64,000 bases of DNA from Synechococcus sp. RS9916 (GTDB taxonomy: Bacteria > Cyanobacteriota > Cyanobacteriia > PCC-6307 > Cyanobiaceae), in the NCBI RefSeq assembly GCF_000153825.1, contig NZ_DS022299.1, positions 2,134,869 through 2,198,868 of the forward strand, written 5' to 3'. This document shows positions 53,513 to 57,852 of this stretch, piece after piece. Below the pieces are notes generated by a model. That model did not search any database. It was not told the DNA's origin and saw only the letters and a program-made list of their open reading frames with translations. The translations under genes and the position numbers were made by a program. Position 1 is the first letter of the stretch, and each line of letters opens with the position of its first letter.

Positions 53513-54490
53513 TCAGTCTGCCGGCACCAGCAGATGGAGGGAAAGAGTGTCGTCGGGATCATGCCAGCGCTGCACCCAGCGCCATCCGGCCGTGGCGGCC
53601 AGTTCTTGGGCCATGGCGGGGCTGTATTTGAGGCTGTATTCGGTCACCAGGGGTTCGCCGGTTTGGAAGTTCCAGCGTTGGTCAGCGATCTGCACGTCTT
53701 GATCGCAACAGCTCACCAGGGCCATTTCCACCCGGCTCTGATCGGGTTGCCAGCGGGCGCGGTAGCGGAACTGCGCTGGATTGAAATCGGCGTTCAGTTC
53801 GCGCTTGAGCCGCTGCAGGAGATTGCCGGCGAAGGCAGCGGAGACCCCTGCGGCATCGTCGTAGGCCGCCTCCAGGACCGGGGCGGGCTTGGGATGGTCC
53901 AGTCCCAGTAGCAACGGACCTCCCGCGAGCAGGGTGCGGAAGCGCTTGAGCAGCGTGATGGCGTCTTGGCGGCTGAAGTTGCCCAGGGAACTGCCGGGGA
54001 AGAATCCCAGGCGACGTTGGCCTTCCAGCAGGGGATGGGCAGGTAAGGCGTCGAGCTGGCTGTGGTCACAGCAGATGCCCAGCATCGGCACCTTGGGATG
54101 CTGCTCCTGCAACGCCTGGGTGGCGTGGCGCAGGTGATCGGTGCTGATGTCGAGTGCCACGTAGGCGTCTGGTGTCAGGGCCTTGAGCAGGGGGCCCACC
54201 TTGCGGGCGCTGCCGGCGCCGAATTCCACGATCACTCCAGGGCCGAGGGTGGTGGCCATGGCCTCCGCCTCTTGCTCGAGCAGGGCGATTTCGGTGCGGG
54301 TCAATTGGTATTCGGGCTGCTCGCAGATCTGGTCGAACAGGCGTGAGCCCTCAGCGTCGTAGAGGAACCAGGCGGGCAGTTGCTTGGGCTGGCTGTTGAG
54401 CCCCTGTTCCACCAGCCGTTGCATGTCGGCGGCGGGGGGGTGCAGGTCGATCAGGTCGGCCTGCAGGGATGAGGTGGAGGTGGTGGTCAT
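53513..54490 (-). CDS. egtD: L-histidine N-alpha-methyltransferase EgtD
   Basis: EgtD trimethylates the alpha-amino group of histidine with three S-adenosylmethionine to make hercynine. The 325-residue protein has the family hallmark YDAEGSRLFDQICEQPEYQL near residue 44, the SAM-binding VIVEFGAGSARKVGPLL (residues about 87-103), and FFPGSSLGNFSRQDA. C-terminal segments carry the substrate-binding region (ARWQPDQSRVEMAL). The ATG at 54490 overlaps the egtB stop in an ATGA junction, so the two genes are translationally coupled. Confidence 0.93.
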   Translation of the reverse strand: MTTTSTSSLQADLIDLHPPAADMQRLVEQGLNSQPKQLPAWFLYDAEGSRLFDQICEQPEYQLTRTEIALLEQEAEAMATTLGPGVIVEFGAGSARKVGPLLKALTPDAYVALDISTDHLRHATQALQEQHPKVPMLGICCDHSQLDALPAHPLLEGQRRLGFFPGSSLGNFSRQDAITLLKRFRTLLAGGPLLLGLDHPKPAPVLEAAYDDAAGVSAAFAGNLLQRLKRELNADFNPAQFRYRARWQPDQSRVEMALVSCCDQDVQIADQRWNFQTGEPLVTEYSLKYSPAMAQELAATAGWRWVQRWHDPDDTLSLHLLVPAD

Positions 54491-55689
54491 CGGGCCAGGC
54501 GCACGCCGGCTGCCATCCAGCGGCAGGCCGGGGCAAAGAAGTTGCGGTAGGTGAGGCGGGCATGGCCTGCCGGCGTGAGTTGGCTGCTGCCGCGCAGCAC
54601 AAATTGAGAGGTCATGAACTTGCCGTTGTATTCGCCGACAGCGCCTGCGGTGGGCTGAAAGCCGGGGTAGGGGCGGTAGGGGCTGGAGGTCCACTGCCAG
54701 AGAACGCCGTAGGCCTGATCGAGCGCTTCGCGATGGGTGGCAGCGGCCACTTCCCATTCCGCTTCGCTGGGCAGGCGGCTTCCGGCCCAGCGGGCGTAGG
54801 CATCGGCTTCGAACCAGCTCAGATGTCGCACTGGTTGCTGCAGGTCGAGGGGTTGGCGGCCGGCGAGGCTGAACTCCCAGGCCCAGGGGGCTTCGGGGTG
54901 CTCACGGCGCCAGTAGCGCGGGGCTTGCCAGCCTTGCTCTTGGCGTTGCGCCCAGCCTTCACTCATCCACAGCTCGGGTCGGCTGTAGCCCCCATCGCTG
55001 ATGAACTCCAGGTAGTCACGGTTGCGCACCAGGGCACTGGCCAGGGAAAAAGGCTCGAGCCAGACCCGGTGGCGCGGCCCCTCATTGTCGAAATGGAAGC
55101 CAGTGGCGGGATCGCTGGCCTCCGAGCCGATCTCCACCAGGCCACCGGGATGGGAGAGCCACTGGCAGGGGCTGGCGGGGTCGGCCGTCGCGGCTGGTGG
55201 CCACTGCGGGTCGTAGCTGGGTTCCAGAGGCTGACGGCTGAAGCCATCGAGCACATCCATCAACAGCAATTCCTGATGCTGTTGTTCGTGCTGCAGCCCC
55301 AGTTCGATCAGGCCGCTCCACCGAGGGTCCTCATCCCCGCCAAGCAGCGTCTCCAGCGAGGCGTTCACCCGCTGGCGCCATTCGCTCACCTCCGCCATCG
55401 GTGGCCTGCTGAGCAGGCCGCGTTGCGGTCTGGGTTGGCGCGGGCCCACCGCCTCGTAATAGGAGTTGAACAGATAACCCCAACGTTGATCCGCGTTGCG
55501 GTGAGCCGGCAGGAACGGCTGCAACACAAAGGTTTCAAAGAACCAGGTGGTGTGGGCCAAATGCCACTTGGGAGGGCTGGCATCTGCCATTCCCTGAAGG
55601 CAGAGGTCCTCCGGTTCCAGCGGGGCGATGAGCGCTTCGCTCTGCTGCCGCACCGACAGCAACCGTTGCAGCAGGGTGCTGGAAGGCAT
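54487..55689 (-). CDS. egtB: Ergothioneine biosynthesis sulfoxide synthase EgtB
   Basis: EgtB is a non-haem iron enzyme that joins a thiol to hercynine with O2. The 400-residue protein has an N-terminal DinB-like part whose His46 (WHLAHTTWFFETF) and His134/His138 (HEQQHQE) fit the three iron-binding His of characterised EgtB. The C-terminal FGE-sulfatase-like domain follows, with EIGSEASD and the late segment VLRGSSQLT. No EgtA or EgtC gene is nearby, so cysteine may be the direct thiol donor; that is inference. First gene of the operon, divergent from the kinase-like gene (99 bases). Confidence 0.92.
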   Translation of the reverse strand: MPSSTLLQRLLSVRQQSEALIAPLEPEDLCLQGMADASPPKWHLAHTTWFFETFVLQPFLPAHRNADQRWGYLFNSYYEAVGPRQPRPQRGLLSRPPMAEVSEWRQRVNASLETLLGGDEDPRWSGLIELGLQHEQQHQELLLMDVLDGFSRQPLEPSYDPQWPPAATADPASPCQWLSHPGGLVEIGSEASDPATGFHFDNEGPRHRVWLEPFSLASALVRNRDYLEFISDGGYSRPELWMSEGWAQRQEQGWQAPRYWRREHPEAPWAWEFSLAGRQPLDLQQPVRHLSWFEADAYARWAGSRLPSEAEWEVAAATHREALDQAYGVLWQWTSSPYRPYPGFQPTAGAVGEYNGKFMTSQFVLRGSSQLTPAGHARLTYRNFFAPACRWMAAGVRLAR

Positions 55690-55788: not shown

Positions 55789-57852
55789 ATGCCAGGAGAG
55801 GTGATCGTGATCGGGTCTGTGCTCGCGCAGCGCTACCGCATCGATCAGCAGCTCGCGACTGGGCAGGCTGGGCAGGGGGTGCTTCCCCAGGGGCAGCTCT
55901 GGCGAGGATCTGACCTGCTGGCGTCGGATGCTCCGGTGGCCTTGCGCCAGTTGCAGGACCCGGAGTCCCAGGCCCGTTTCCGTCAACTCTGGCCGTCGAT
56001 GCAGGCCGTTCTCCATCCTCAGATTCCCCGCTTTGGGGGCTTGCTGGAGGAGGACGGGGCTCTTTGGTTGGTGCGCGAATGGCAGCAGGGCACACCCTTT
56101 GATCAGATCCAGCAGCAGCGCGTCGAGCGCCAGCTGGTGTTTGGCGCCGGTGAAGTGCTGTTGCTTCTGCGCCAGTTGCTGCCGGCTCTTGCTGTCTTGC
56201 ATGCCAATGGCCTGGTGCACGGTGATCTGAACCCCAGCAATCTCTTGCGTCGGGATCAGGACGGACTGCCCCTGCTGCTCGATTTCGGGCTGTTGCAACG
56301 CCAGGGGGAGAAGCCGATCCCAGGTGCCACTGCGGGTTTTGCTTCGCAGGCCCAGGGACGTCTCGAAGCCGCTGCGGCCTGGATGGACCTGCATGCCCTT
56401 GGGGTGACGGCCTTGGTGCTGTTGAGCGGCAGCCGGCCTGAGCAACTCCTGGATGCGCAGGCAGGGGCCTGGGTGATCCCCGAAGGACTTGATCTGGATG
56501 CGTCGTTTCGAGAGGTCCTGGGTCGCCTGCTCAGCGAGCGTCCTGAGGAGCGGTTTGAGCAAGCCAGCGCAGCTTTGGAGGCTTTGCGTGGTGTGGTGAT
56601 GCCGGAGTCCACCGGCCCGATCGCCCGTGCGGAACGCACCCTGGTGCTGGCCCCTGCAGCACCACAGCCGGATCTTCCTCGTTGGGACGACGGTGTGTCC
56701 GAGGCGGGTGGAGCTCCAGGGGCGTCGCAGTCCGCAGCCAAAGCATCGCCCTCTCGCGTGCGGCCCACGGAGCAGGAGCGCCGCCAGGCCGCTGAGGGTC
56801 GCCTTTGGCCTGTGGTGGGTGCCTTGCTGGCTTCTGCTCTGGTGGGCACGGCGATTGGTTGGTTCTTGCTGACTCGCGGTCAGGCGCCGGGCACCGCGCC
56901 TTCAACGGATCGAGACCTGGCCGGGCGGTCGCCGCAGGCCAGCCTGCCGCCGGCGGAGGTGGATCAGCGTCAGCAGCTGCTCAGCCGGTTGCGGGCCTTG
57001 CAGGTGGACCGCAGCTGGTTCCTCAGCCTGGTGGATTCCAGCCTCCTGTCCCGTTACCCCGAGCGGAACGGGCGGTTGCCAGGGGATGGTCTGGAGGATG
57101 CGCCGTTGCGCAGGGTTTGGCATGAATTGGCGGAGGAATGGCTGGCTCGCGTTGAACAGTTGCCTCCCGCTTTGCGGTCTCGTCTGGGTCGCTTGAAGGA
57201 CGCTGATTGGCGCAAGCAGCGGGATTTGCTCACGCAGCAGGGAGTGGATCTCCGGGTGGTGGAGCAGTTGGTGACCGCTTCGGCTCAGTCCTTGCTGCCT
57301 GGCGTGGCGACAGGGTCCAAGCCGCCGGAGCCCTACCGGCAGCTCTGGTTTGCAGCGGCCATGCGCAGCCTGGAGGAGGTGCGTATTGAAACCCTCTCGG
57401 CGCGTCCTCAGCAGGCCACCGTGCTGTCCAGCCGGGTGCAGGCCGGTGGAGCCCGTTTGATCACCATCAACGTGCCCAAGGGGCGCCGCCTGGTGCTGGG
57501 CATTAACGGCACGCCCTTGATGCAGATGACCGTTTACGGGGCCAAGGGTGATGTGATGGCGGAGCGTGGTCCGTTGCGGGTGGTGACTTTGCCGCTGGAT
57601 GCGGGCACGCCGGTCCAGGTGTTGGTGACCAATGAAGGGGTGTCTTCTGGCGTGATCACCCTGTCGTGCCGTGCTGATCGTCCGGCACCGAAGCCTCTGC
57701 CTCCGGTCGATCCCAATCCTTTGCCAGACCCGGCCACCGGCGTGCTGGGCCCTGCTGAGGTGCTGCCGGAGCCTCCGGGCCCGCGTCCCGCGGGTGCGCC
57801 TGATCCAGAGCCTGCAGAGGCGGGCGGCCCTGATGCTCCGCCCCAACCCTGA
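55789..57852 (+). CDS. Membrane serine/threonine kinase-like protein with degenerate active site
   Basis: The 687-residue protein has a kinase-like domain (about residues 15-265). The catalytic loop is HGDLNPSN (His144, Asp146, Asn151) and the Mg-binding DFG is present at 165-167, but the beta-3 lysine position reads VALR (Arg53) and the Gly loop is interrupted by an insertion. A single helix at about 340-361 and a periplasmic-type domain of 325 residues follow, ending in a Pro/Ala/Gly-rich tail. It may be a pseudokinase or a kinase using another lysine. The ATG at 55789 is chosen; an ATG-less alternative start (GTG, 55801) would also keep the domain. Confidence 0.75.
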   Translation: MPGEVIVIGSVLAQRYRIDQQLATGQAGQGVLPQGQLWRGSDLLASDAPVALRQLQDPESQARFRQLWPSMQAVLHPQIPRFGGLLEEDGALWLVREWQQGTPFDQIQQQRVERQLVFGAGEVLLLLRQLLPALAVLHANGLVHGDLNPSNLLRRDQDGLPLLLDFGLLQRQGEKPIPGATAGFASQAQGRLEAAAAWMDLHALGVTALVLLSGSRPEQLLDAQAGAWVIPEGLDLDASFREVLGRLLSERPEERFEQASAALEALRGVVMPESTGPIARAERTLVLAPAAPQPDLPRWDDGVSEAGGAPGASQSAAKASPSRVRPTEQERRQAAEGRLWPVVGALLASALVGTAIGWFLLTRGQAPGTAPSTDRDLAGRSPQASLPPAEVDQRQQLLSRLRALQVDRSWFLSLVDSSLLSRYPERNGRLPGDGLEDAPLRRVWHELAEEWLARVEQLPPALRSRLGRLKDADWRKQRDLLTQQGVDLRVVEQLVTASAQSLLPGVATGSKPPEPYRQLWFAAAMRSLEEVRIETLSARPQQATVLSSRVQAGGARLITINVPKGRRLVLGINGTPLMQMTVYGAKGDVMAERGPLRVVTLPLDAGTPVQVLVTNEGVSSGVITLSCRADRPAPKPLPPVDPNPLPDPATGVLGPAEVLPEPPGPRPAGAPDPEPAEAGGPDAPPQP

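Follow-up and report, generated by a model that had tools for sequence, protein, structure and literature searches.

The window analysed here is a stretch of 64,000 nucleotides from Synechococcus sp. RS9916 (contig NZ_DS022299.1). It carries an open reading frame (ORF) for a membrane protein with a kinase-like domain, a single membrane helix and an outer domain (Table 1). The original prediction, made from the sequence alone, was that this protein is a pseudokinase or an unusual kinase that senses the envelope, and that Arg replaces its ATP-binding beta-3 lysine. We compared the gene with orthologues from picocyanobacteria, by which we mean the family of the genome set to which the window belongs, and with relatives from other Cyanobacteriia. 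It turned out that the Arg is fixed in the family.

Translation probably starts at GTG 55807 (Val7) rather than at ATG 55789, because AGGAGAGG ends 5 bases upstream of this GTG and the nearest orthologues have no upstream ATG. In the 16 rows inspected, these two orthologues (L005, L006) have an ATG near residue 6 and none at the equivalent of 55789. Hydropathy gave the single membrane helix that had been predicted (approximately residues 339–362), and about 325 outer residues with a Pro-rich end follow it. The outer beta-sandwich matched several unrelated PPC/CUB/GOLD-like families with Z 9.4–12.3 across 85–108 residues, and these comparisons mainly test residues 526–634. A Pfam scan found no significant match for the sandwich, and the outer-domain profile had no convincing match in the PDB (best E 0.0084).

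Table 1. Features of the gene and its product in window coordinates (pLDDT, predicted local distance difference test; dN/dS, ratio of nonsynonymous to synonymous substitution rates)
Feature	Position	Strand	Basis
Whole ORF	55789..57852	+	Open frame, 687 aa plus stop
Probable ribosome-binding site AGGAGAGG and start GTG 55807 (Val7)	55794..55809	+	Sequence, orthologue starts
Kinase-like domain, residues 8-284	55810..56640	+	Pfam, model, fold match
Degenerate Gly-rich loop with variable insertion, residues 22-41	55852..55911	+	Alignment
Arg53 codon at beta-3 lysine position (beta-3 'VALRQL')	55945..55947	+	Alignment with family and outgroup
Leu67-Trp68 at alpha-C Glu site	55987..55992	+	Ungapped alignment
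Arg96 at gatekeeper position	56074..56076	+	StkP alignment, model
Catalytic loop HGDLNPSN (His144, Asp146, Asn151)	56218..56241	+	Alignment
Arg154-Arg155 on beta-7	56248..56253	+	Alignment
DFG (Asp165-Phe166-Gly167)	56281..56289	+	Alignment
Ala188 where APE Glu is expected	56350..56352	+	Alignment
Linker, residues 285-335	56641..56793	+	dN/dS by part
Single membrane helix, residues 339-362, after conserved EGRLWPVV	56803..56874	+	Hydropathy, alignment
Helical outer subdomain, residues 391-529	56959..57375	+	Full-length model, blocks of pLDDT 65-86
Outer beta-sandwich, residues 530-632, PPC/CUB/GOLD-like	57376..57684	+	Structure matches
Variable Pro-rich tail, residues 634-687	57688..57849	+	dN/dS by part

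Kinase fold and active-site residues

The Pfam Pkinase profile matched residues 68–219 with 48 bits against a cut-off of 31.7. Modelled alone, residues 1–284 with the kinase domain have a bilobal kinase fold with a pLDDT of 80 and a predicted template modelling (pTM) score of 0.82. The alignment for this model contained the window protein, seven orthologues and two distant kinases, and the five models spanned pLDDT 60 to 80. The two distant kinases carry canonical motifs and may have biased the model toward a canonical kinase. In the full-length model, built from 8 sequences, the kinase half is poor, with pLDDT below 50 over most of residues 1–199 and 55–69 over residues 201–270. The top PDB match of the domain model was mycobacterial PknB (Z 22.3 over 239 residues, 3.0 Å), which ties within Z 1 with many other kinases. 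The PASTA kinases PknB and StkP have a single-pass layout. The window protein has the kinase fold in common with them and differs in pocket residues, and the Pfam scan found no PASTA repeat in it.

The replacement of the beta-3 Lys by Arg53 was confirmed, as was the retention of Asp146, Asn151 and DFG, and the model places Arg53 on beta-3. Further changes were found in the active site. The alpha-C Glu is lost, HRD has become HGD, the gatekeeper is an Arg, and the APE Glu is lost in the protein's own genus. Asn148 occupies the position of the catalytic-loop Lys. Arg96 was assigned as the gatekeeper because it aligns with the Met of StkP 'MEY' and lies at the end of beta-5 in the model. The alpha-C Glu site falls on Leu67 without gaps and on Met71 in a gapped alternative.

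Using BLAST, we found a match to the gene in 176/300 genomes of the family, and in 135 of the 197 good ones. From the 176 matching genomes and from Synechococcus records, we chose a set of 92 distinct aligned rows as a sample of these genomes. The set leaves out two non-orthologues (L001, L041), two copies of the window (L002, L004), a kinase-less locus (L065), a locus at a contig end (L085) and three identical sequences. Position 53 is Arg in 91/92 rows, seven named Synechococcus records among them (L034–L040, three identical to other rows), and His in one (L044). Thus, the fixation of Arg53, which had been proposed as a check, was borne out. Asp146 is retained in 91 rows, Asn151 in 85 and Asp165 in 90, and Arg53 and these three residues are jointly intact in 85/92. 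Removing the seven rows that lost Asn151 (L043, L044, L062, L063, L064, L067, L082) leaves 85 intact rows, and in these Arg53, Arg96, Arg154, Arg155, Asp146, Asn151 and Asp165 are each found 85 times out of 85. At the alpha-C Glu site, neither the ungapped nor the gapped alignment has Asp or Glu in any intact row. None of the 27 rows that belong to the own genus or lie close to it has the APE Glu, which is present in 47 of the 58 other family rows.

The Gly-rich loop was said to be broken by an insertion. The loop is indeed degenerate: its first two glycines are generally lost, and the third (Gly35) is Gly in 77/85 intact rows. The insertion, however, is not general; its length varies and many orthologues lack it, which rules it out as the cause of the degeneration.

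We also determined whether another lysine could fill the pocket. The highest lysine column of the kinase domain reaches 12/85 intact rows. The whole domain is lysine-free in 44 of these, and the N-lobe is lysine-free in 69/92 rows. The window protein has one lysine in the domain, Lys175, which lies in the activation segment. These low columns and the many lysine-free domains indicate that filling of the pocket by another lysine of the domain is not a family rule. A Lys at an alternative aligned position had been named as evidence against the original prediction, and among picocyanobacteria no conserved lysine column was found.

A sequencing, annotation or alignment artefact might be suspected, since the Gly loop is hard to align and there is a gapped alternative for alpha-C. 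However, Arg53 recurs in 91/92 distinct rows, the named records included, and the model has Arg53 on beta-3 and Arg96 where beta-5 ends. We give an artefact almost no credence.

Lysine-bearing relatives and loss of the kinase half

The outer-domain profile A1 matched 129 of the 291 genomes of Cyanobacteriia, and 109 of these lie outside the own family. In 40/40 regions chosen from the 109 genomes, the kinase, the membrane-side linker and the outer domain are encoded in one ORF. The chosen regions, a subset of the matching genomes, gave 48 outgroup rows. Beta-3 has Lys in 46/48 rows, a gap in one (the second copy of L134) and Gln in one (L156), and the alpha-C Glu is present in 45/48 by ungapped alignment. 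The catalytic-loop Lys position is Ser, Ala or Thr in 48/48, which shows that the loss of this Lys is older than the Arg53 change. Leaving out six incomplete or poorly matched rows, including both rows without the beta-3 Lys, we obtained 42 complete domains, in which the beta-3 Lys, the HRD Arg and the APE Glu are each present 42 times out of 42. Their gatekeeper is Gln in 40 and Arg in two. At position 154, 40/42 have Leu, Gln, Cys or Trp, and at position 155, 40/42 have Arg. Thus, Hanks-type kinases of other Cyanobacteriia have the same one-ORF architecture as the window protein but differ from it in the canonical Lys, alpha-C Glu, HRD Arg and Gln gatekeeper. Fourteen kinase positions differ in a fixed fashion between the family and the outgroup; two of them (68 and 72) depend on the gapped alpha-C alignment.

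The distant relatives with Lys at the same position date the change. In the outer-domain tree, a single starred branch (99) separates the family rows from ten outgroup rows. Since the two groups separate on one branch, the simplest reading is that the Arg53 change was probably a single event on the picocyanobacterial stem and not scattered decay.

In four of the 48 outgroup rows, Asn stands for the catalytic Asp, and some of these rows are second copies beside a canonical kinase. Second copies with this Asn and with NFG for DFG were seen at L134:3276-5192 (+), L143:623-2281 (-) and L149:1532-2344 (-). The tandem copy of L143 has VREY and that of L134 has HGN. Such copies in three other cyanobacterial genomes indicate that pseudokinases arose again in this protein family. 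Descent of the picocyanobacterial protein from tandem pseudokinase copies of other cyanobacteria was considered. In the kinase tree, 13 family rows stand apart from the others on a starred branch (100), and the three tandem copies fall among the other rows. However, this is a quick, midpoint-rooted tree with a long family branch (1.75), so the family may still descend from such copies. A search of viral contigs with the family kinase alignment found no relative, and two distant kinase loci turned up when the lysine-bearing relatives served as the query.

Within the family, the kinase half is missing at some loci. Ten loci (L065, L184–L189, L197, L200, L201) keep the helix and the outer domain and have no match to the kinase profile in any frame of the fetched stretch. 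They were picked among partial or weak matches, so that ten is not a frequency. All ten are flanked by at least one of EgtB, EgtD, SmpB and RuvB and thus occupy the same chromosomal place. The whole-genome search, in which at most three candidates were scored per genome, gave one match per kinase-less genome, which would mean that these genomes hold no kinase half elsewhere. In the outer-domain tree of 119 rows, the kinase-less state requires 5 changes, and at least 4 are forced by starred branches; this is a quick tree that carries long-branch warnings, including for L185–L187. The kinase-less L200 and L201 are sisters of the Asn151-lost L043 and L044 (starred, 98).

Degraded domains were also found. 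In L191–L193, the kinase profile matched only over its first ~150 positions, CGD or CAD stands for HGD, and the outer domain is intact. In five rows (L062, L063, L064, L067, L082), the activation segment is shortened, Asn151 has become His, and DFG reads DGG or EGG. L194–L196 and L198 were grouped with them mainly by length, and L194 was the one inspected by eye. At L199, in the complete genome G162, remnants only were seen in the fetched stretch: a frame of 126 aa matches the kinase N-lobe, and one of 36 aa matches the C-terminal part. No match was found in 124/300 genomes of the family, and the 20 listed of these have 1.0–2.2 Mb. That the inner half was lost repeatedly suggests that some lineages can do without its output.

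We assessed selection on the parts as the median Nei-Gojobori dN/dS in six clusters. The window's own cluster is near saturation in the synonymous rate (dS 1.0–1.3). The kinase half, which is under purifying selection, has 0.04–0.26 overall, with 0.07–0.23 in the N-lobe and 0.04–0.26 in the C-lobe. The helix plus outer part has 0.05–0.17, the linker 0.12–0.67 and the Pro-rich tail 0.17–0.45; in most clusters the linker and the tail exceed the folded parts. In the single L043/L044 pair, which lost Asn151, the kinase has 0.44–0.47 versus 0.22 outside.

The inner half could be a decaying relic without a nucleotide role that persists toward deletion. The Asn151-lost rows with altered DFG and shortened segment, the half-recognisable L191–L193, the ten kinase-less loci and the L199 remnants fit this, as does the N-lobe dN/dS, which is somewhat above that of the outer part in all six clusters. 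However, values of 0.04–0.26 still mean strong constraint, and the pocket residues are strictly kept in 85 intact rows spread across the family tree. We therefore consider a relic quite unlikely.

Role of the inner and outer halves

We hold with moderate confidence that the protein would be an envelope receptor whose essential part lies outside, and that its inner half would be a nucleotide-binding pseudokinase with little or no phosphotransfer. This single-pass membrane receptor would descend from a cyanobacterial Ser/Thr receptor kinase. On the picocyanobacterial stem, its pocket would have been rebuilt, probably once: the beta-3 Lys and the gatekeeper Gln both became Arg, a non-acidic residue replaced the alpha-C Glu, HRD turned into HGD, and the first two loop glycines were lost. 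The catalytic Asp, the Mg-binding Asn and DFG were retained. The inner half may bind nucleotide and act as a switch or a docking scaffold, with weak or no catalysis. The outer helical and beta-sandwich part, the longest-kept part, probably binds something in the envelope and may signal from this ligand; we regard it as the main function because it is the constant part. The words 'pseudokinase or unusual kinase' are supported, as Arg53 is fixed, the alpha-C Glu is missing and no conserved lysine is there to fill the pocket. As for sensing of the envelope, we infer it; the outer part, with its PPC/CUB/GOLD-like fold matches, outlives the kinase half in several lineages. Overall, the original interpretation finds partial support.

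Canonical kinases are described as needing the beta-3 Lys for activity, whereas nucleotide can often be bound without it (PMC4718504). A Lys to Arg change reportedly does not keep EphB6 and KSR1 from binding ATP or other ligands (PMC12599244). Several points weigh against our reading. The retained Asp146, Asn151 and Asp165 form the pattern expected of an active enzyme. The invariance in the 85 intact rows is partly due to how the rows were selected, since the Asn151-lost rows were removed from this set. The N-lobe dN/dS exceeds that of the outer part in 6/6 clusters and the C-lobe dN/dS in 4/6, so that the inner half is constrained, but less tightly. The low lysine content is partly a matter of composition. 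Among the 19 long ORFs of the window, three also contain 277 residues in a row with no more than one lysine, which weakens lysine scarcity as a special trait, though the rows of lowest GC content (0.57–0.62) also have Arg53. GUCY2C, HER3, TRIB2 and murine MLKL need the lysine for nucleotide binding (PMC4718504); thus, nucleotide binding is not assured here. Activity without the usual lysine is described for WNK and PRPK (PMC4718504). The cyanobacterial SpkE was first reported as inactive and later as active (PMC11863333).

Some of these points suit an active atypical protein kinase, in which Arg53, Arg96 and Arg154 would replace the Lys-Glu pair and position ATP, and phosphorylation would continue. 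These arginines and Asp146, Asn151 and Asp165 are present in every intact row, and active kinases without the usual lysine do exist (PMC4718504). Moreover, in 19 of the 24 complete genomes of the own genus, this domain is the sole Hanks-type (Pkinase) match above the cut-off. On the other side, the beta-3 Lys is described as a requirement for activity in canonical kinases (PMC4718504), the alpha-C Glu and the first loop glycines have gone as well, the own genus also lacks the APE Glu, and the entire inner half has been lost repeatedly. We judge continued protein phosphorylation possible but unlikely. WNK kinases also lack the beta-3 lysine, but their lysine is supplied from beta-2 (PMC4718504), whereas the window family has no conserved lysine.

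The kinase fold could also carry other chemistry, such as AMPylation, which SelO performs, or glutamylation. The rebuilt pocket with its kept Mg ligands is consistent with this, and alternative chemistry on bacterial kinase folds is described for SidJ and SelO (PMC12599244). However, Pfam and NCBIfam scans found no signature of such enzymes, no direct test having been made, and we consider this explanation very unlikely. More broadly, it is conceivable, though doubtful, that an arginine-based active site with Arg53, Arg96 and Arg154 in place of the Lys-Glu pair arose on one stem and still uses Mg-nucleotide, as a true kinase or for other chemistry. If so, most complete genomes of the genus would have this site in their one remaining clear Hanks-type domain.

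Returning to the proposed receptor with a pseudokinase inside, we compared it with described systems. Bacterial pseudokinases with a beta-3 Arg are already described, namely ActPs2 (PMC12599244). In ActPs2, the HRD Asp is Asn, DFG is mostly deleted and the activation loop has a very long insertion (PMC12599244), whereas the window protein keeps Asp, DFG and a short segment. MviN/ActPs3 likewise has its pseudokinase domain within a membrane protein that is linked to envelope functions, but all three of its motifs are gone and PknB phosphorylates it (PMC12599244), whereas the window protein keeps the catalytic and metal motifs. Most genomes of the genus are unlikely to use the protein as an MviN-like substrate of a partner Hanks kinase, because 19/24 complete genomes have no second match above the cut-off. 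CP1 pseudokinases, as described, are defined as having no membrane region and a linked COG3899 domain, whereas the window protein has a membrane helix.

A survey of 2007 reported one serine/threonine kinase (STK) each in Prochlorococcus MIT9313 and Synechococcus CC9902, CC9605 and CC9311, and none in WH8102 (PMC2176072). These STKs (PMT0154, Syncc9902_0160, Syncc9605_0116, sync_0122) deviate from the canonical motifs and cluster together; the survey called the deviations tolerable and placed the four near SpkE (slr1443) (PMC2176072). Matched by their description, these marine single-copy STKs are probably the present gene. In the passages of the survey that were considered, no Lys to Arg change, arginine gatekeeper or domain loss is named (PMC2176072). 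In the literature searched, with subscription papers mostly outside it, we found no account of the fixed Arg, the arginine gatekeeper or the loss in place of the kinase part.

This one orthologous gene, at a single chromosomal place, offers a natural series, from Lys kinases and the fixed Arg through shortened or half-recognisable domains to kinase-less loci and genomes with no match. This series lets one ask which active-site residues a pseudokinase needs and what a kinase-less envelope receptor does. As the domain is the only clear Hanks-type hit in 19/24 complete genomes, counting it as active may overstate Ser/Thr signalling in these phototrophs.

Neighbouring genes and other kinases

The gene is adjoined by genes for an EgtD-like histidine methyltransferase and an EgtB-like protein (window 53513–55689, minus strand), which are apparently ergothioneine-type genes. 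Among 96 family loci, EgtB was found in 86, SmpB in 83 and RuvB in 76.

Another kinase-like domain is encoded in the own genome at L001:433-2778 (-). It belongs to a 781-aa protein, where it follows a class III nucleotide cyclase domain (PF00211), and it keeps the Lys and has HGD and DFS. In three other genomes of the genus, a second Pkinase match above the cut-off lies in frames of similar length (747–755 aa).

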